From Orbilia blumenaviensis (Eukaryota > Ascomycota > Orbiliomycetes > Orbiliales > Orbiliaceae), in the NCBI GenBank assembly GCA_036872755.1, contig JAVHNS010000009.1, positions 2,108,001 through 2,172,000 on the forward strand: a stretch of DNA of 64,000 nt. The letters are read 5' to 3'. The notes below the pieces were generated by a model. That model saw only the letters and a list, made by a program, of their open reading frames with translations, was not told where the DNA came from and made no database searches. Position 1 is the first letter of the stretch, and every line of letters begins with the position of its first letter. Below, in pieces: positions 4,292 through 16,000 of the stretch. Both the position numbers and the translations under genes were made by a program.

Positions 4292-7200
4292 ATGAAGCAC
4301 TCATCACTTCTTATGGGGACTGTGGTCTCAGCACTATCGTTAAATGGCGTCGCTCATGCCATGGATAGTGAGGCTGACTGGGCTTTCGCGGCCAACAACT
4401 TGGCAAAGAGAGCTATGGCTATCCCATCGCCGACCCAACCAGGGCAGCCCGAAAACTGTGTATCATGGAAATATGTCGAGGCAGCGGATACTTGCAATAC
4501 CATTGTTAAAAAATACCAAAATAGGAAATTGACGCTGGAAAAGTTTCTTGAGTATGTAGATACCGATGCGTGTTGTTCTGATTGACCACCGCCAGTAGGG
4601 CCGAAGCTTATAAGACGATTTCTGGCAGGTTCAATCCCGCTATTGATGAAGAAGACTGCAACTCTCTCACAAAGAAAGTCTATGTTTGCGTTGAAACTGG
4701 TGCCGCGAAGACTACTTCGGCTGCAGCAAAGGCCACCGAGAAAGCTACTGAAAAGGATTCTGAAAAGGATGCTGAAAAGGCTGACGGGAAAACCGACGAG
4801 AAAACCGAAACAAAGGAAACCGACAAAGCTGATACAAAGGCCGATACAAAGGCCGATACAAAGGATGATACAAAGGCCGATACAAAGGATGATACAAAGG
4901 CTGATACAAAGCCTGAAGCTGAAGCCCCCCCGAAAGACACACCGCCGCCGCCGCCTGCGGAGGAAGATGATCCGTATGCGGACAACCCACCTCCCGTCAA
5001 GCTTACCAAAAAAAATCCAGCAGCCCCCACGAAGCTTGAGGCGGACGAAGCGGATAAGAATGTTATCACTGGTGCTGGTGATACTAAACAGACACCCCGT
5101 TTTTGCGCTAACCGACGGGATCTTGTTGCTTTGCAAAGGGAGCTGCCAGACACCTTCAACTTGCTGGTTCTTGCTCTGGATAAGATGATGAAGACAAAAG
5201 AGACGGATCCATCGAGTTACTTCAGACTATCTGGTAAGTCAAAACTTGTTCAAACTCGAATACCCATGCTGGTTCATGAGAATATGAACGCTAATGAGGG
5301 TTCTGTACTATTTTTTTCCGGGTAGGTGTTCACGGCGCTCCGTAAGTGGCAGCACTAAACTTTCAGAACTGCTCCGTGGTTTTCCACTCTCTTACCGTAC
5401 ATCGTATTATAGATATACTTCTTGGCCAACCACAGGGGAGGAAGGCAATCAACTTGGGTATTGCACCCACAACTCAATTCTGGTATGGTGGCTCCAGCCC
5501 CCCCAAATCACTGTTTTTCTGACTATCTAATGTTATATATAGTTCGCCACATGGCATAGACCTTATATCCTAGCTTTCGAGGTGAGATCTCAATGGCTCT
5601 AGTATTCTAATAGGTGGGATGGCATCCTAATGTCCCAAATAGCAAGCTCTATACAGACATGGTAGAGATATCATCCGGAAGCAGTTCACTGCCGCTGCCA
5701 CCCAGAAAAAATATATTGCAGCGTTGTCACAACTTAGATGGCCGTAAGCCACAGCATCCTCGCCTTGATTTTAAAGGAGCAAACAGGCAGCTAATACAAG
5801 CGACAGATACTGGGATTGGGCCGATAGGACCACAGAGAGCACAATGCCACCTGTCACTATGCAACCTACGATCCGGGTGATGGGTCCTAATGGTAAGGGT
5901 GGTGAGAAGGCAATGACTATCGTCAACCCGTTCTACGCATACAAATTCAAAGATAACGTTGAAGCCGGTGCTTTGGGAGGAAAAGTAAGCGGTCGAGAGT
6001 CTCCCTTAAGACCACCCCCCTCCTCGATTTAGTGAAATAGAAACACTAACTTGGGGTTCTTAATTACGTAATTAGTATAAAGGATTGAAGGCAACAGCTC
6101 GTAGACCAAACAACTCTGGCAGGGATGATAATCAGAACGAAAGTGCGAATATCACCATGCACAGCGGTTATATAACGTGGGTTCCGGCATCTGTAACTCC
6201 TTATGCTCGAGATGTTAGTCAGTGCTAACAAGTGATCGACGTAAATAGGAGACGCAAGCAAACATACAACGCCCTTATGAGCACAAGCGGATTTAACTTC
6301 TTCTCGAACTCCCTTGAGAAACTCCATAATGACGTGCATGTGCAAGTTGGAGGCCCTGGCGTAATGGGTGTTATAACCTATGCGGCCTTTGACCCGATGT
6401 TCTGGTAGGGAAACGTGAACATTTGTCCTATATAAACTTCGACTAAACTAGTTACTAGGCTTCACCATAACAACATCGATCGTATGCTTGCGATATGGCA
6501 GGCCTCTAACCCTGGAAAATATCTAGTAGCAGATTCTGCTGTATCGACATTCGCACGAACCTCAGCAAAAACAGACAAGGACGATGCAAGCACGCCACTG
6601 CATCCGTGGAAGCATCCTGATGGAGAATTTTGGACATCCGAAGACGTTAAGGATGCCACTATGATCTGGGATTACGGATATGGCTATCCAGAGGTCCCTT
6701 GCTATTTCCAAGGCGATACAAATACTTTGGATGGCTTTACTACCGAAGCAATCAACAAAGCTTATAATGACATCCCGCCAAGGCCTAGAATCAAAGGGCG
6801 CTCTGCTATCACCACAAAAGGTCAGACTATTACTGAGTGGGATGTTAACATCATTGTTGATCAAGCCGAACTGCCTGGCACTTTTTCGATCTATGTCTTC
6901 TTGGGACAGCCGCCATCTGACCCTAAAAAATGGGACGCATCTTCGCAGAAAGTCACCACAATGACGCTACTTGGCTCCCCAGGCATGACTAAGCAAAATA
7001 AACTTGAGGGCATGACTATTCCACTAGGGCCATTGCTTGCCAAGAAGGGAATCAAAGGTACAGACAAAGAGGTGGAACAATATCTCGCTAAGAACCTTCT
7101 ATGGACATGCATGAATATCAATGATTCGGTAAGATTTTCTGATAATTTTATTTTATGGGCTACTCTGACAATAGTACGTATACATAGGGGGCTGCAAGGC

Positions 7201-7457
7201 CATATGACGTAAAGGCTATGAGTTCCCTTAAGGTTGCTGTTACCAGTAGGAGTGTTATCATGCCCTCCGATATGTCGAAGAAACCAAGACTTGGCAAGAC
7301 TTTAGTTAAAACAGCCGTTACCAAAGATAAGGCCAAGAGCGGTGGTGCTGCTGCGGTTTCTGAGCTTTCGCACGCCAAGGAGAAGAATGGTGCCGAAGGC
7401 CAGCTTCGTGTCGGCATCCTCCCAGATATCCAGAATACTACCACCAGCAAGCTTTGA
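4292..7457 (+). CDS. Secreted LysM-tyrosinase fusion (chitin-binding module plus type-3 copper oxidase)
   Basis: Eleven exons splice in phase to an 831-residue protein: 4292-4551, 4599-5233, 5326-5341, 5413-5482, 5543-5581, 5643-5743, 5807-5984, 6076-6176, 6249-6404, 6459-7128, 7188-7457. Residues 1-23 form a signal peptide. Residues 56-118 match a fungal LysM (NCVSW, DTCNTI, FNPAI, DCNSL, VYVCV). Residues 120-225 are a Lys/Asp/Thr then Pro-rich linker. The rest is tyrosinase. All six copper-ligand histidines are visible: H301 (VHGAP), H323 (CTH, with the Cys that forms the thioether in fungal tyrosinases), H332 (TWHRPY), H493 and H497 (HNDVH), and the FWLHHNNIDR motif at 518-527. PYWDWA and the YGYGYPE core-end signature near 591-597 are also present, followed by a C-terminal lid-like region. 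Such enzymes oxidise phenols and o-diphenols to quinones. The LysM would target it to chitin. No frameshift is seen. The fusion is read in one continuous exon (exon 2). Confidence 0.93.
4552..4598 (+). other. Short intron inside the LysM module with a tandem CAG/TAG acceptor
   Basis: Donor GTATGT at 4552. The branch-like TTGAC is followed by two acceptors three bases apart: CAG ending at 4595 and TAG ending at 4598. Both keep the frame. Use of the first adds one residue and changes the junction from Glu to Asp-Arg. At 44 or 47 bases it is near the lower size limit for fungal introns. Without splicing the frame stops at 4582-4584, so splicing is needed to join LysM to tyrosinase. Confidence 0.7.
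4831..4914 (+). repeat. 12-bp coding tandem repeat, seven units (DTKA/DTKD)
   Basis: Units start at 4831, 4843, 4855, 4867, 4879, 4891 and 4903, each GATACAAAG plus GCC, GAT, GCT or CCT. They encode Asp-Thr-Lys-Ala/Asp and form residues about 165-192 of the linker. A looser Lys-Glu/Asp repeat precedes them. The near-identical units make length polymorphism by slippage likely. Confidence 0.9.
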
Positions 7458-9034
7458 GAGACCGTATTCCGGCTATATACCATCTTTAGTTCTGCTCCAT
7501 TTATTATTGCATGCGGGTATCCTTAGGGACGTTCAGATTCACCAACCCTGGGAACCAGGTGTGGGTCTCTCTGTGTTATTCACGTACCGATTCCCCTCAA
7601 CTTGTATATCTCGGAGTATGTATATCTATTATCTACTATCTACTTGCAAATTTCTTGGGTTTTTATGGCAAGTAGCTCTGTTTATAAGAAATGTACTTTT
7701 ATTTGCGCCATCTAAAGCAGAGGGGAAGAATGGTGATGTTTATGGACAGAATTTCCAAAATAAAATGACAGGGAAGCGAAACCTACTAGAGCCAGGAAAT
7801 ACATATAATTATTAAGCCTATTAAATACATTCGGTAGTTTAGTCTCGGATAGATATACCTTCATTAAAAGTCGGGGAGCTCTAAATCTGATCGTGGGTTC
7901 CCAAAGGGAAGTTACTGACTCGACTTGCCTGTTTAAAAAAATGCATTTCAGATAGTAATTCACAAAATATAGGTACCCCTTTAAACCAGCGGGTCCAGGC
8001 AGGATCAGTATATATACACGGACGCCAATACAATTTCAACAGAACGAACTTAAAGCTTAGTGTACAAACATTTAGGTTTTTGATAATGAAGCTGATGGTT
8101 GTCGAGAATATGGGTTTAGATGTGCCGGCATACATAAAGCTTGATGTTTTTAGCTAGCTGATAGACATTCTGATACATATCCCCTACTCAGTTAGGCATC
8201 ATTGAAATTAATAAAAGTAGTCTTTTGCAGATCTGGTCATCTAGTAGTATAGTATACTTGTTCACTTGGGTAGGCCTCGGTGTCCCTTGCACCCCAGATG
8301 GACTTCAAACCGTCCCATCTTATAATTGGGTTCGGATCCAACGAGACCAGTTCGGATCCAGTCTTACCACAGTCCCCCTCAATTTAAATTTGATCTAGGC
8401 TAAGTCTTTATGAGCAGTGCCAGCATCTGCGCATTATATTTCAAGACTAACTACGCAACGTATGCATTATTAAGGTAAGCACTCAATATTTGTGAAGGGT
8501 GATTGGTAGCCGAGCTAGCCATTGCATCGTGTGTTGGAGCTGTTGGGGTTCTGCTGTCGTGTTGCAAAAGTCGTGCCAAGATCAGGCCGTGCTAAGCACA
8601 AGGCCACAACATTCCGTTTCCTAGAGACGCGTTCGAACTCTGTTATTTACACCGACAGGCATATTCGGTTATTTGATACACCAAGTACCTATCCCGACTT
8701 AGGAAGACATAACCCTGAGCCTTATCTAGGTATTCAATAAAGGATGTGACTTCAACAGCCCTTTGTCGTAATTGAATGATTTTTAGTCGGGAGACTTGAG
8801 ATGATGTGTCACGGTTGAGGTGAGTTTCAATGACCCAACCCCTGAGATCTGTGCAAGTTCGCGGCTGAGCAGTCTCGCGAACGCTGAGGCGGCCTGGGAT
8901 CTTCGGAGTGACTATGAAGCCTCAACCATGTTCATCATTCCTTACTAAGCAGCGCCTGCCTGTAGTTAGCCCGTGGCCCTTTTGACAAGTCTTTCGCCTG
9001 CGCAAACATTCGATTCTATCTTTGCTTCGCCATC
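7458..9034. other. Intergenic, no gene seen
   Basis: About 1.6 kb between the tyrosinase stop and the helicase ATG. It is AT-rich in the first kilobase. The ORFs here (for example 8522-8740) have no recognisable features. It must hold the tyrosinase 3' UTR and the helicase promoter, but no clear TATA box was seen close to 9035. Confidence 0.5.
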
Positions 9035-12000
9035 ATGTCGCAACACCGCTATCAGTCGGCCCCTTCCTCATTAGGCGCGGGGAAGTCGGGGAGGAGGACC
9101 GGGGCCGACTTTACCGCACTCCCACTCGAAACGCTTCTACATATCGCTGGATACTTGTCAAACGGCGACGTAGCTACCTTTGCTAGGGCATTGCCCTATA
9201 TCAATCCTCTCATAGCCCGGAAACCTTTTCACAGGTGGCAGAGATTGGTTGGAACCTTTACATATCGGCTTAATGATACATTTGATGCCATTGAAAATGG
9301 CCCTCGACAAAAAGCAAGTTCGGGAGCCCCTAGGCTAGTCAATGCGGCGTCTGTGGTGCCTAAAGTTTGCGAAGCGGCCGAATTCCAGGATTCCTACATC
9401 CCCCAAGTCTTAGCGGAAATGAGAATACATCTTGAAAATGAACAGCCCGTCCAATTAGATGATATATTTTTATCACTGCGCAAGCTTGGGGATAGTCCTG
9501 GAATGGCGTTCAGCCCGCTAGTGGATTGCGCGGATGCCGAAGAAGGTTCCAAAAGGCTTCGATCTGCCCTTGACACAATCCTACCTGTCGAATTAGTTAA
9601 ATCTCTTCTTCCATCCGCCATATCTCTGGATATCCATTTGATACCATCTGCCAACCTTGACTTTATTCTTTTAACTGGATATCTCTTGTTTACAGAGCTC
9701 CAACCGAAGGACATCGTTAAGTTACTCCCGCGCTACTCGGGGCGTGGATACATTAGTGAGCAGGCTCTCGCTGAATACTTATCGTATTTTCTATTGTTCT
9801 TGAAAGTTTTTAGACTCAATAGTGCGTGCGTCCTAAATGTCATGCGATCAGTCAATAACGAGATGACGGACCGGGTCCAGTGGAAGTTCACGAATGGATC
9901 TCCTCTATCCGGCCAGAGTTTGCAGATCTTACAGAGACGAATTGAGAGTTGGTTCGCCGACTTCCATGAGGCACAGATCTATCCCATTCCAGATTCCAAG
10001 AAGCCGCCTTTAACGAGAGAGCAACGGCTGTTTGTTGATTTTGACATCCAAAAAAGTCAAGTATTCAAGGTTAGGGCGTATGCTGGGACAGGAAAAACGA
10101 AGTGTCTAGTAGACTATGCGAGCAAGCGGCCGCGAAAACGGATTCTCTACGTAGCATACAACAGATTAGCTAAGTTGGATGCAGATTACAGATTTAAAGA
10201 CTGCTACAATGTAAGTCCACGCCCTTCATTACTGGGCGGGCAGTGATATTAACATATTCTACTAAAATAGGTGGATTGCAAAACACTCCACAGCGTTGCT
10301 TTCAACGCCTTGTCTGTTGTCAATCCAGATGTGGACCTACAGGTTAAAGGAAAAGTGGTTAGTGGACCGGATCATCCGTCCGCTGCATCATCCCGTCGTG
10401 GAACACTCGCACGCATATCATCTGCTCCAGTTGAGAACAACTTTCTTCAGAATTGGGATATCGACGTCATAGCGAAGTCCATGCGTCTTACCCTGGATAT
10501 TGTTGCTCCAGTCTTTACCACAAAATACGAGTGGCCAGGTGAATATTCCAGTTGGATGAGCTTCATGAATAGTCGCAAGCCCGCGGTTGGGACCCCAAAG
10601 AACCCAAAGAACGTCGAAAACCTAGTGAGGATCATTACTACTGGTATTGATAAGTTTTGCAATTCCAGGGACCCCGAACCAACGGTAGCACATCTTTCCC
10701 TATCTCAGTGCCGTACCAAAGTCTGCAATCCTGACTTAGCGGTAAATTGGCTCAAGCGGCTATGGAAGATGATTATGTTGGGAAAGTCTCCGCTGATGAC
10801 CCACGACTGCTATCTTAAGATGTTTTCCCTGACCACCAACCCTGAAGCTGACCAAATTACTTTTGGCAAATATGACATTGTGATGTTTGATGAGGCGCAA
10901 GACGCAAATCCCTGTATGGCAAACATTATTCTAAGGCAAAGGGAAGCCGCCGGGATAATCATAATCGGAGACCCATACCAGATGATATATGGGTTCAGAG
11001 GCGCTAAAAACGAATGTTTCGATGATGAGAAGCTGCCTCCTACACAGACATTTCACCTCACGAAAAGCTTTAGATTCGGGCAAGAAGTAGCAGACATTGC
11101 GAATCTTATACTCGGTACAGTTGGAGAAACAAAGCTTGTTCGAGGGGGAAACTCCAGCGCTCCCTCGCCTGCAGTCTTCCTCCCACCTGCGAAAGGTTCA
11201 AAAGATTTTGCGCCGATCAACCGGCATACTGTTATTTTCCGAACTAATACAAGTACGTCGTCTGTTGTGGCTCTGTAAATTCTGCCAGTGATGCTAACAC
11301 CACACAGAACTTGTCCAATATTTCTTTTCATCGTTTGCGAAATACCCGAACAAAACAATGTGCTTAAAGACAAGCGCCGCAAACGCGTCCACTCTTATCA
11401 TCCCACTCCTTCGGGCAGGATACTTCCTTTACAAGGGAAAACCACCTAAACACCCTAGACTTAGGGGGGTAACATCATTCGAAGAGGCGAAAGCCTATGT
11501 TCAACGAGAAGAAAACTGCGAAGGTCCAGACTCCGACGACGTCGACCTTCCAGCCCTCGCCCTTGTTGTGGGCATGGAGAAGTACTATCAGGCCGAAAGC
11601 GAGCCAAATGGAAGCTCTTTTCTAGAAATGCTAGAGTCCTCTTCACATTGCATTGTCGATGTTGAAAAGCAGGCAGATATCGTTCTAACCACGGCACACC
11701 AATCAAAAGGTTTGGAATGGGATGATGTTATAGTTGCTGAGGATTTTAGATTAGATGGGCTCGACCGGCAAAATGCAACGGCTCACCAGGCGTGGAGCAA
11801 TGAAGCCATTAATTTGATCTATGTAGCCTGTACAAGAGCACGGGAGCGACTTCAACTCTGTCAAGGGCTCGCTCACTTTCTTGTTCGCCGGCTCGGAACC
11901 TCCCGATTCTTCGTCTCTCCCGAAAGCAATTCCGTGTGCCCTTGTTGCCGGGGTAGGCAGCCTTTCAACACTTTCTTAGGTGGATTTTTAACAGACACGG

Positions 12001-12548
12001 ATGCCATAAACGGGACCGACATATCGAATTACTTGTCAGCCAAACCCTCGCCATGCATTGGCTACGAGGCTTTAGTTCCACGAAGGGACCCCTCCTCGCC
12101 CAATGGCTGGATCGACCCCCAAAAACGGCCTCTCAATCCAGCCGAAATCCCCAATGGCGTTTACTTACCCGCAATTGCCTGCGTAAACTGTATACTTTCT
12201 TGGCGATCTTTAACAAACAGGATGCATGGGGACCTTTTTAGGTTTGCCGACGGTATAAAGGGCCGTATTGGGTTTGTGGCTCATCCATACCATAGCGATT
12301 ACCATATTTTCTGGGCGGGCAGGTTTCCCCCCGGTACGACGGGTCACCTTGGCAAAGTAGAAACTCAGCCGTTGCAATCGGCTTATAATTCGAAGATGCG
12401 AATGGGACTTGAAGATGCTGTGAACATTGGACTTATAGACGAAAGCCGGGTTGCCTGGTGTGATTTCGTCTTTGCAAAAATCAGAGACACTGGTGCGGAA
12501 TATGACGACGAGGACATCGACGAGTTCATCAAAACTTTTGAAGGATAA
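9035..12548 (+). CDS. Fbh1-type F-box DNA helicase (UvrD/SF1 family)
   Basis: Three exons (9035-10210, 10271-11252, 11308-12548) give 1,132 residues. Both introns are phase-consistent; intron 2 has the branch-like TGCTAACA. Residues about 28-70 form an F-box (FTALPLETLLHIAGYLS...). Helicase motifs follow in UvrD order: motif I AYAGTGKT (348-355), motif II DEAQDANP (about 600), motif III GDPYQMIYGFRGA, motif V QSKGLEWDDV (about 851) and motif VI VACTRARERL. Fbh1 proteins couple an SCF ubiquitin-ligase F-box to a 3'-5' helicase that limits Rad51 filaments and recombination at stalled forks, in the nucleus. The length is in the family range. After motif VI there is a roughly 220-residue tail with CPCC and CVNC pairs that could bind zinc. 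The N-terminal initiator is in a good context (ATCATGTCG). The name rests on architecture, not alignment. Confidence 0.9.
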
Positions 12549-13019: not shown

Positions 13020-16000
13020 TTAGGTCCGTCTCCTCCCTCTCAGGTTAAAATCAAGATTTCCTACTTGTGTAAGGCACCATTTTGGCACCCACCCCTCGCG
13101 TCTTGTTTTACTCTGCATTTTGACACCCCAGACAACGTTCGAATCCTGCTCTTCATAATCGACGCTGATCATATCTCCGACTCGTACACTGATCTCTCCG
13201 TCCTTCTTCGCATCATACTGTGCCCAGACTCGATAGGTAGTGTTGGTAGAACGGGGCGGCGAGCGAGAATCGACCAGGTTACGGGACGGAGTAGCTGAAT
13301 GAGTAGACTCTAGGTCGATAAAAGTGGAATGAACATGGGTTGTCGGGTTGCTTAATAGCTTTTCCTGGGCCCTGACAGCTACTGGCGACGCATTTAATTC
13401 ATCAGGGAAGGCGGGAAGGGGTGGAGGCGGTGGGATAAAAAGGGTCGGCTTGGGGCTTGTGGACCCCTTCCGGCGGTTAAAAGGCTCGGGTGATGGAGAC
13501 GGCCGACGCTCTCTAACGAAGCTGCGAGCAGGTCGGACCGATCTGCCAGAGTCGGGGAGCTCTAGGGCACCGATATGTGCGTGCTGGGGCGGTGTTTCGG
13601 GCAATGGTGGCTCCGGTTCCGGGTCAGAATCATCATAGTCATTTTCCTCCATCTCCACAGCAATCTTGTGGTTTATTGTTGCCCGGCGAAGAAGCGTGGG
13701 CATCGATATTTCAAAGGTTGGAAGTTCGACAGCAGCTGATGATGCTATAGATGCCGAATCCAGCTCAAAGATTCCCTCCTCGGTCGCCCCGGTATTTCTA
13801 CTAACCGTGTTTATCACCCTTAAGAGGCTATCACAGAACAAGTCTCGCACTGTAGCTTTCAGTATTCCATGTCGTCAATTGCGGGGGCAAGATGGAAGGT
13901 ATCTTACACTGTCTAGTGGGAAACGAATATATCACCCTTCCGTCCAGACGCCAGCATCTTGGGTCCCCATCACCAGATTTATCAGCAATGGCAGAATCAT
14001 GGTTTAGTACGAATGTTCTATAGCCAACACAACAAGCCTCGATAGATTCTTTGACATTGCGCTCTTTCATAAAATAACTAGGTATTACTAAAGAATTAAG
14101 TGTGTGTCAGCGCCAGTGGCCTATCTGTATCGATATTGGGATTCATACTGTCTTGAGACATTATCCTGTCATTCGAAAAGCTCTGTACCAAGACTCGAAT
14201 GGAATTCAATTCGTCATCCTTGAGGAGAGTCAATCGGCTATTATTAAAGAACCCGCCAAAGAATGCTGGGTTGTCGACATCAACGGATGACTCTTCGATG
14301 ATGCTATAATAGTGACACCCGGATCAATTACTAAGCAACCAAGAGAAGGGCGATGTTGAACTTTGCCATACCACTCATATTCTTTCCTCTCATCTTCTTC
14401 AATATCAAACCATCTCTTCATTTTGAGACGGTTGCGCCAAAAGTTGAACCACCCAAAACCCCGAGATGCGACTTGTTGAACCGTTTTCCCACCGCCTTCG
14501 AAACGCAGCCTCAATCTTCCAGAACCAAGTTTTTCTTCGATGGCATCAATACCAACCGCATTTTCGGGGGGTGAGAGAACCGCATCATCAACCCCCATAG
14601 TTAGAGTTGTGTAAGTCTGTTGGGGATGAAGTTTTGGTGCCGCTCGGACAAAACAGATAAAGTTCCGATTCCCACATTTGAATTGCAATTTGCTCCTCCC
14701 ATCGTCGTCGAATAGCACCCCAGGTCGGGCTGGGTCCTGGCCTAATCTTTCGGCCAAGTCCTTTCGACGCACAACTCTGTGTTGGGAGATAGAAACTTCC
14801 TTTATTGCTGGCGAAAGAAATTTCCATACTCCGTCTAACCTTATCTCGGCTGAAGGAAATATCTCAATATTGCCGAAGGCGGAAAGTATTGAAATCGTGT
14901 CTAGGTCCTCAGTATAGACCGATATCAGTTCTTGGCCGGGTCGCATCCCTACAATCGCCAAGTTTGTCGCAATTCGTGTTCGTAGGAGGTTAGCCATAAC
15001 GTCCTCGAATTGTCGTTCCTCTGAAAATTGTATCAATATTAGAATATCTAAAGAATTATCTATAATATGCCACATGTGTCTTACTTTGGGGGGTTGGGCA
15101 ACGTATATAGAGCTCGAGATTTGATTCCTTCGCAATAACGTTGACGAGGACAAAGCATCCAGGACTTTTCGCATTCCTAGAACCCAGCGCAAGAATAGGT
15201 AAAGTAAATGCGCCAACTAGGTTCGTATTAGTGTTTGCATAATAGATGGGGATATGAGGTGAGCAGAAATTCAAACCTCTATAATCTGTTAATTCATGTT
15301 GTTTAACCGCACCCGTAGTGGTCTTGCAACGACAAGCAAACAAGGGCAGTGCAGCAGGTCCAATAGCATCAAATGACAAGAATAAAGCCGGATTAACTGT
15401 GGCATGAGGACATAAAGAATTTTGCCGTGCTTCATCTAGATATATTTCGATATCCCTAGGTTTTTAGTTAATACAGCGAAATGCCAACCTTCCTATGGAC
15501 AAAAAAAGAAATACTAACAAGTCGTAGCCTTTTGGCGTTTCAAATACTGGCACTTGACTAGTAGAGATTTTCCGGATATGGTTTGAGGGTAGTTCTGCTA
15601 GGAAAACTGATGAGCTACCAGGGCTTTGGTATCTAAGTTCGGGTGTGGCAGTCCTTTCCACAGTTTCTAGCAGTGCGGGTGTGGATATTCTAGATAATGG
15701 GGCTCCCATCGCATCCTCGAGCGCCATCGTCTCAGTAACAAATTCTCCCCGAGCAAGTTCGGTTATCATGCAGATACAAGCCACAGCATCTAAATTATTT
15801 GATCAGACGGAGATAATTTAGATGCTATGATAGTATATGGAGCATACCTTGGTCACTACTAAATTGATAATTGATGGTATTGGGTTCTTGCCGAATCTTG
15901 AGGCATGGCCCATCCTTTTCGCGGCCAGGTAGCAAATGCGTTACATTCGCCATTGGCTCGTCGATACAAAGCGTGTCGTCGTGAAGGTCTATTTTTGTCC

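Follow-up and report, generated by a model that had tools for sequence, protein, structure and literature searches.

A Predicted LysM-Tyrosinase of Orbilia blumenaviensis and a Family of Such Fusions in Related Fungi

Introduction

Can a fungal tyrosinase carry a LysM module of its own, and what would such a module do for the enzyme? The question is raised by a gene on the plus strand, at positions 4292..7457, of a 64,000-nucleotide stretch of the genome of Orbilia blumenaviensis, an orbiliaceous ascomycete with nematode-trapping relatives. This stretch (contig JAVHNS010000009.1, positions 2,108,001 to 2,172,000; C9:2108001-2172000 in our numbering) is referred to below as the window, and the source genome searched comprises 42.46 Mb on 23 contigs. 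LysM modules usually bind chitin. An initial annotation, made from the letters of the window, described an in-phase gene of 11 exons encoding a LysM, a linker and a complete tyrosinase. The splice model and domain searches reported here confirm this description, and comparison of sequences indicates that the LysM-tyrosinase is a family with many members rather than a single odd gene.

Results

The predicted coding sequence runs from the ATG at 4292 to the TGA at 7457 and comprises 821 codons without an inner stop. Its 11 exons (4292-4551, 4629-5233, 5326-5341, 5413-5482, 5543-5581, 5643-5743, 5807-5984, 6076-6176, 6249-6404, 6459-7128 and 7188-7457) are separated by GT-AG introns of 54-92 nt. 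The predicted splicing is supported by the homologues, because they are collinear with the spliced protein. When 11-residue stretches across the 10 exon junctions were compared with 11 homologues, the mean identity was 0.45-0.88 at eight junctions. Junctions 7 and 10 gave mean identities of 0.30 and 0.31, and some homologues carry insertions there (7 and 1 extra columns, respectively). No homologue had a gap at any of the 10 junctions. The first half of the LysM is encoded by exon 1 and the second half by exon 2. As the initial annotation had stated, the end of the LysM, the linker and the start of the tyrosinase lie in one exon; this is exon 2 (4629-5233), which covers all three without a break.

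The identity of the N-terminal module required particular attention. A Pfam search of the window protein listed five families at E ≤ 10, and LysM was not among them; the assignment therefore rests on a profile of the family and on the fold predicted for orthologs. The Pfam LysM model itself matches 3 of 13 domains of the family at E ≤ 10 (best 0.0081), and P0057, a member of the LysM clade described below, lies above the Pfam LysM cut-off (28.3 vs 20.9 bits). A search of the PDB with a profile of 13 family domains returned LysM chains only. Compared with LysM repeats of the same genome, the family profile scored far above 400 shuffles. By profile, the module is homologous to accepted LysM domains (PF01476/CBM50). 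A chance pattern of cysteines as the source of this signal was ruled out by the 400 shuffles, 200 with the cysteine columns fixed. In an alignment of 18 domains, an Asn-Pro pair and three of the cysteine columns are invariant, and the fourth cysteine column is conserved to at least 90%. A beta-alpha-alpha-beta LysM fold was predicted for the orthologs P0003 (domain alone) and P0002 (whole protein), which were used as queries in place of the spliced window protein; the predicted local distance difference test score (pLDDT) of the ortholog domain was 93.6. When the whole P0002 model was used for a structure search, the alignments left the LysM part uncovered, and the domain was therefore folded alone. 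On profile and model grounds, the designation of the N-terminal module as a LysM holds. The initial annotation had named structure prediction as a test of the LysM, and on these two orthologs it gave the expected fold. The borders proposed there (residues 56-118) have to be moved: the domain extends from about residue 55 to 108 (4454..4692) and contains intron 1 (4552-4628, phase 2).

Both tyrosinase domains of the window protein score above the Pfam cut-offs. The core (PF00264, residues 281-524, 5209..6504, E 4.3e-45) contains the copper-ligand histidines, which alignment places at H291, H313, H322, H483, H487 and H511/H512; we take the motifs around these residues to be the copper-ligand sites, with the second histidine of the last pair presumably serving as the ligand. 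Wherever an aligned row covers one of these positions, it has a histidine there. The core match and the aligned histidines bear out the earlier claim of a complete tyrosinase, and the protein has the six ligands and the central domain by which a type-3 copper tyrosinase is recognized. N484, the asparagine following the first CuB histidine, is conserved in 18 of 18 aligned rows and is presumably tied to monophenolase activity. The protein also carries a C-terminal lid domain (Tyrosinase_C, PF18132, residues 635-750, 6835..7241, E 2.5e-21), a hallmark of latent fungal tyrosinases that was missing from the initial annotation. The model of ortholog P0002 aligns to the latent tyrosinase AbPPO4 over 512 residues. 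In three public proteins of the set, P0006, P0007 and P0008, stretches with CuA ligands are absent; these are probably gene-model errors in which exons were skipped.

The N-terminus provides information on how the protein may mature. A putative signal peptide (residues 1-23, 4292..4360), read from the sequence and matched by similarly hydrophobic N-termini in homologues, precedes a predicted propeptide (residues 24-40, 4361..4411) that ends in a Kex2-like Lys-Arg pair at residues 39-40. This dibasic site ahead of the LysM was not mentioned in the initial annotation. Of the 26 family members, 24 have a [KR]R pair between the start and the LysM (exceptions P0005 and P0050), and in 25 the linker is free of such a pair (exception P0041). 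Since the pair precedes the LysM and almost never occurs in the linker, the N-terminus of the mature enzyme is expected just ahead of the LysM, which would thus stay attached. The linker itself (residues 109-245, 4693..5103) is of low complexity, rich in Lys, Asp, Glu, Thr and Ala, and made up largely of 12-nt repeats (core 4825-4916); a 44-nt reference copy recurs in 11 registers, mostly 12 nt apart. Over the 26 members, linker length ranges from 19 to 285 residues, and the composition varies as well.

The extent of the family was examined in 143 proteins, consisting of the window protein and 142 proteins from homologue searches, one of which listed the best 120 of 412 matches. A LysM is present in 26 of them; profile A1 finds 24 and profile A2 finds 25, and 13 of the 26 carriers were not part of the set from which A1 was built. 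P0050 and P0051 are matched by A2 only, and the LysM of P0010 is only half matched. The LysM of P0050 is divergent. The named members come from Arthrobotrys, Orbilia, Dactylellina and Drechslerella, which we take to be genera of the Orbiliaceae. Locus tags of family members include H072_1090, H072_2935, H072_877, H072_7203, H072_5928 and DFL_000501. No LysM-tyrosinase from outside this family was found among the 143 proteins, within the best 120 of 412 matches in the search just mentioned. When the LysM part of P0057 served as the query of a further homologue search, six candidates were scored and P0057 alone came back, a result that weighs in neither direction.

The LysM carriers form a single group. 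The tree contains 79 of the 143 proteins (19 were dropped because less than 80% of the profile was covered, and 45 were left out by number). All 25 rows with a LysM fall inside one clade of 30 rows with support 100/100, and none of the 49 rows outside it has one. Five clade members have no LysM. Two of these, P0016 and P0017, begin only within the linker or enzyme and are perhaps truncated gene models; the other three, P0047, P0049 and P0052, have a normal-looking start.

The source genome contains tyrosinase matches in at least 19 places (at least 26 matches), and an exon-blind profile search detected a LysM in two of the 19, the window gene and a paralogue, L048. The latter (minus strand, G000:C13:1231000-1238200, start at locus base 4313) has a long Thr-rich linker. 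Like intron 1 of the window gene, its first intron (420 nt) interrupts the LysM in phase 2, two residues ahead of the Asn-Pro pair. This common intron place and phase speaks for one ancestral LysM-tyrosinase fusion that was later duplicated, as far as gene structure can tell. For Dactylellina haptotyla, at least five LysM-tyrosinases are present among the matches (P0009, P0050, P0053, P0054 and P0057), compared with the two found here. Two further LysM places of the source genome deserve mention. L005 is matched by neither profile. L001 (G000:C7, minus strand) is a 520-residue open frame with six LysM-like repeats, in which no enzyme domain was noticed and none was searched for.

The surroundings of the gene were examined with Pfam for a pigment gene cluster. 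Apart from the frames of the tyrosinase gene, this covered 8 of the 27 window open frames of at least 180 residues, all eight within the first 28.7 kb and taken as unspliced frames; no pigment gene was found among them. A UvrD-type helicase accounts for two of the eight, a third has an SH3 match that stays under the cut-off, and five have no match at E ≤ 0.01. The helicase-like gene lies downstream of the tyrosinase (8966-12548, plus strand) in several open pieces, of which two of three have Pfam matches. The weak SH3 match (13023-13874) belongs to a set of minus-strand open frames at 13020-15216.

Discussion

In open-licence papers on LysM and tyrosinase, covered in excerpts (PMC3828140, PMC4237727, PMC3569864, PMC8003418, PMC6909477, PMC10458900, PMC5662087, PMC12387763, PMC11105155, PMC4226871 and PMC4704728, with PMC10458900 and PMC4226871 checked for tyrosinase and not for LysM), we found no description of a LysM-tyrosinase fusion. 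No paper was found for six locus tags of the family. The combination of LysM and tyrosinase in P0057 is, by Pfam, already on record in a protein collection. The nearest described kind is the CBM18-tyrosinase of Batrachochytrium dendrobatidis (TL genes; PMC3569864), in which a chitin-binding module and a tyrosinase are likewise joined in one fungal protein. That module is a hevein-like CBM18 in chytrids, whereas the window protein has one LysM and belongs to an orbiliaceous ascomycete; CBM18 was not among the five Pfam families listed for it at E ≤ 10. A carbohydrate-binding module also occurs on six related tyrosinases (P0069, P0078, P0089, P0099, P0114 and P0123), where it is a cellulose-binding CBM1 instead of a LysM. 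It precedes the enzyme in P0069 and, by eye, in P0078 and P0089. Five of the six are in the tree, outside the LysM clade, and P0114 was dropped as too short. Related tyrosinases thus carry different binding modules, CBM1 among them. The initial annotation had seen here a candidate for an undescribed system. The fusion does exist and is conserved, and the excerpts contain no account of it, but with CBM18- and CBM1-tyrosinases in existence it is not a wholly new kind.

The tyrosinase core and the C-terminal lid are shared with latent AbPPO4 and with melB of Aspergillus oryzae, the two proteins that the ortholog model matched best in structure. Both alignments begin at the tyrosinase core, and to our knowledge neither protein has a LysM or a long N-terminal linker. 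Other LysM proteins differ in the partner of the module. A GH18 chitinase with LysM is listed in an expression study of A. oligospora (PMC4237727), and in P. expansum LysM is combined with GH18, CBM18 and other domains (PMC5662087). LysM-GH18 proteins have a chitinase as the enzyme, in contrast to the copper oxidase with one LysM found here. LysM effectors are without an enzyme domain, so the window protein, with its complete tyrosinase, does not belong to them.

We propose that the gene encodes a secreted latent tyrosinase that is held on chitin by its LysM and cross-links or melanizes there, a reading to which we assign a probability of about 0.6. That the design recurs in relatives points to an enzyme anchored on surfaces rich in chitin. 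Both signal peptide and propeptide would be cleaved off, probably with a Kex2-type protease acting at Lys39-Arg40, leaving a latent type-3 copper tyrosinase with a single N-terminal LysM on a flexible linker. The LysM would then anchor the enzyme on chitin, most likely that of the hyphal or trap wall of the fungus itself and of the contact layer with the prey. Displacement or cleavage of the lid, probably by a secreted protease, would activate the enzyme. Phenols or tyrosyl residues could then be oxidized to quinones at the chitin surface, resulting in cross-linked adhesive and wall proteins or in melanin.

Two other roles have to be weighed. The LysM may bind chitin but mainly shield wall chitin or mask its fragments, with the tyrosinase being secondary or melanizing the shield. 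Such a role is known for fungal LysM effectors (PMC8003418), and the profile and ortholog fold that identify the LysM are in its favor. We nevertheless consider it improbable: the tyrosinase is complete, its ligand positions are histidines wherever they are covered, and the six-LysM open frame of the same genome, in which no enzyme domain was noticed, implies that a shield does not need the fusion. Alternatively, a LysM-like fold that has lost chitin binding might now serve folding, dimerization or latency. The drift that hides the LysM from Pfam in the window protein would fit such a loss, as would the divergent LysM of P0050 and P0051 and the clade copies without one (P0047, P0049 and P0052). 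A linker varying between 19 and 285 residues is, however, unlike what is expected of a module packed on the enzyme, and the invariant cysteines and Asn-Pro pair, together with the fourth cysteine column, also argue against it, so that this explanation appears unlikely too. Finally, a LysM gene wrongly joined to a following tyrosinase gene can practically be ruled out, in agreement with the initial annotation: the splicing is predicted, but a single unbroken exon spans the join, in proteins of other species, which were annotated separately, the domains follow one another in the same order, and the paralogue L048 has the same arrangement.

The chitin-held tyrosinase that we favor may also be seen in a more specific setting. 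Excerpts of PMC3828140 report that the tyrosinase family is expanded in nematode-trapping fungi, with some members upregulated in infection, and speculate on tyrosinase cross-linking in adhesion. Tyrosinases are among the transcripts that differ between hosts (PMC4237727). LysM-bearing tyrosinases are not singled out in the excerpts of either paper. It is conceivable, though tentative and on balance doubtful, that the orbiliaceous enzyme cures the contact layer of the trap or hypha in place, the LysM directing quinone cross-linking to the site where the prey is held; it would then be a tool of carnivory that was duplicated in several lineages.

Conclusions

Pfam recognizes the tyrosinase in the window protein but not the LysM, which illustrates how a domain library can conceal such fusions. 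For the nematode-trapping fungi, a tyrosinase equipped with a module of the chitin-binding type offers a specific, testable protein for the idea that adhesive and wall are hardened at the point of contact with the prey.
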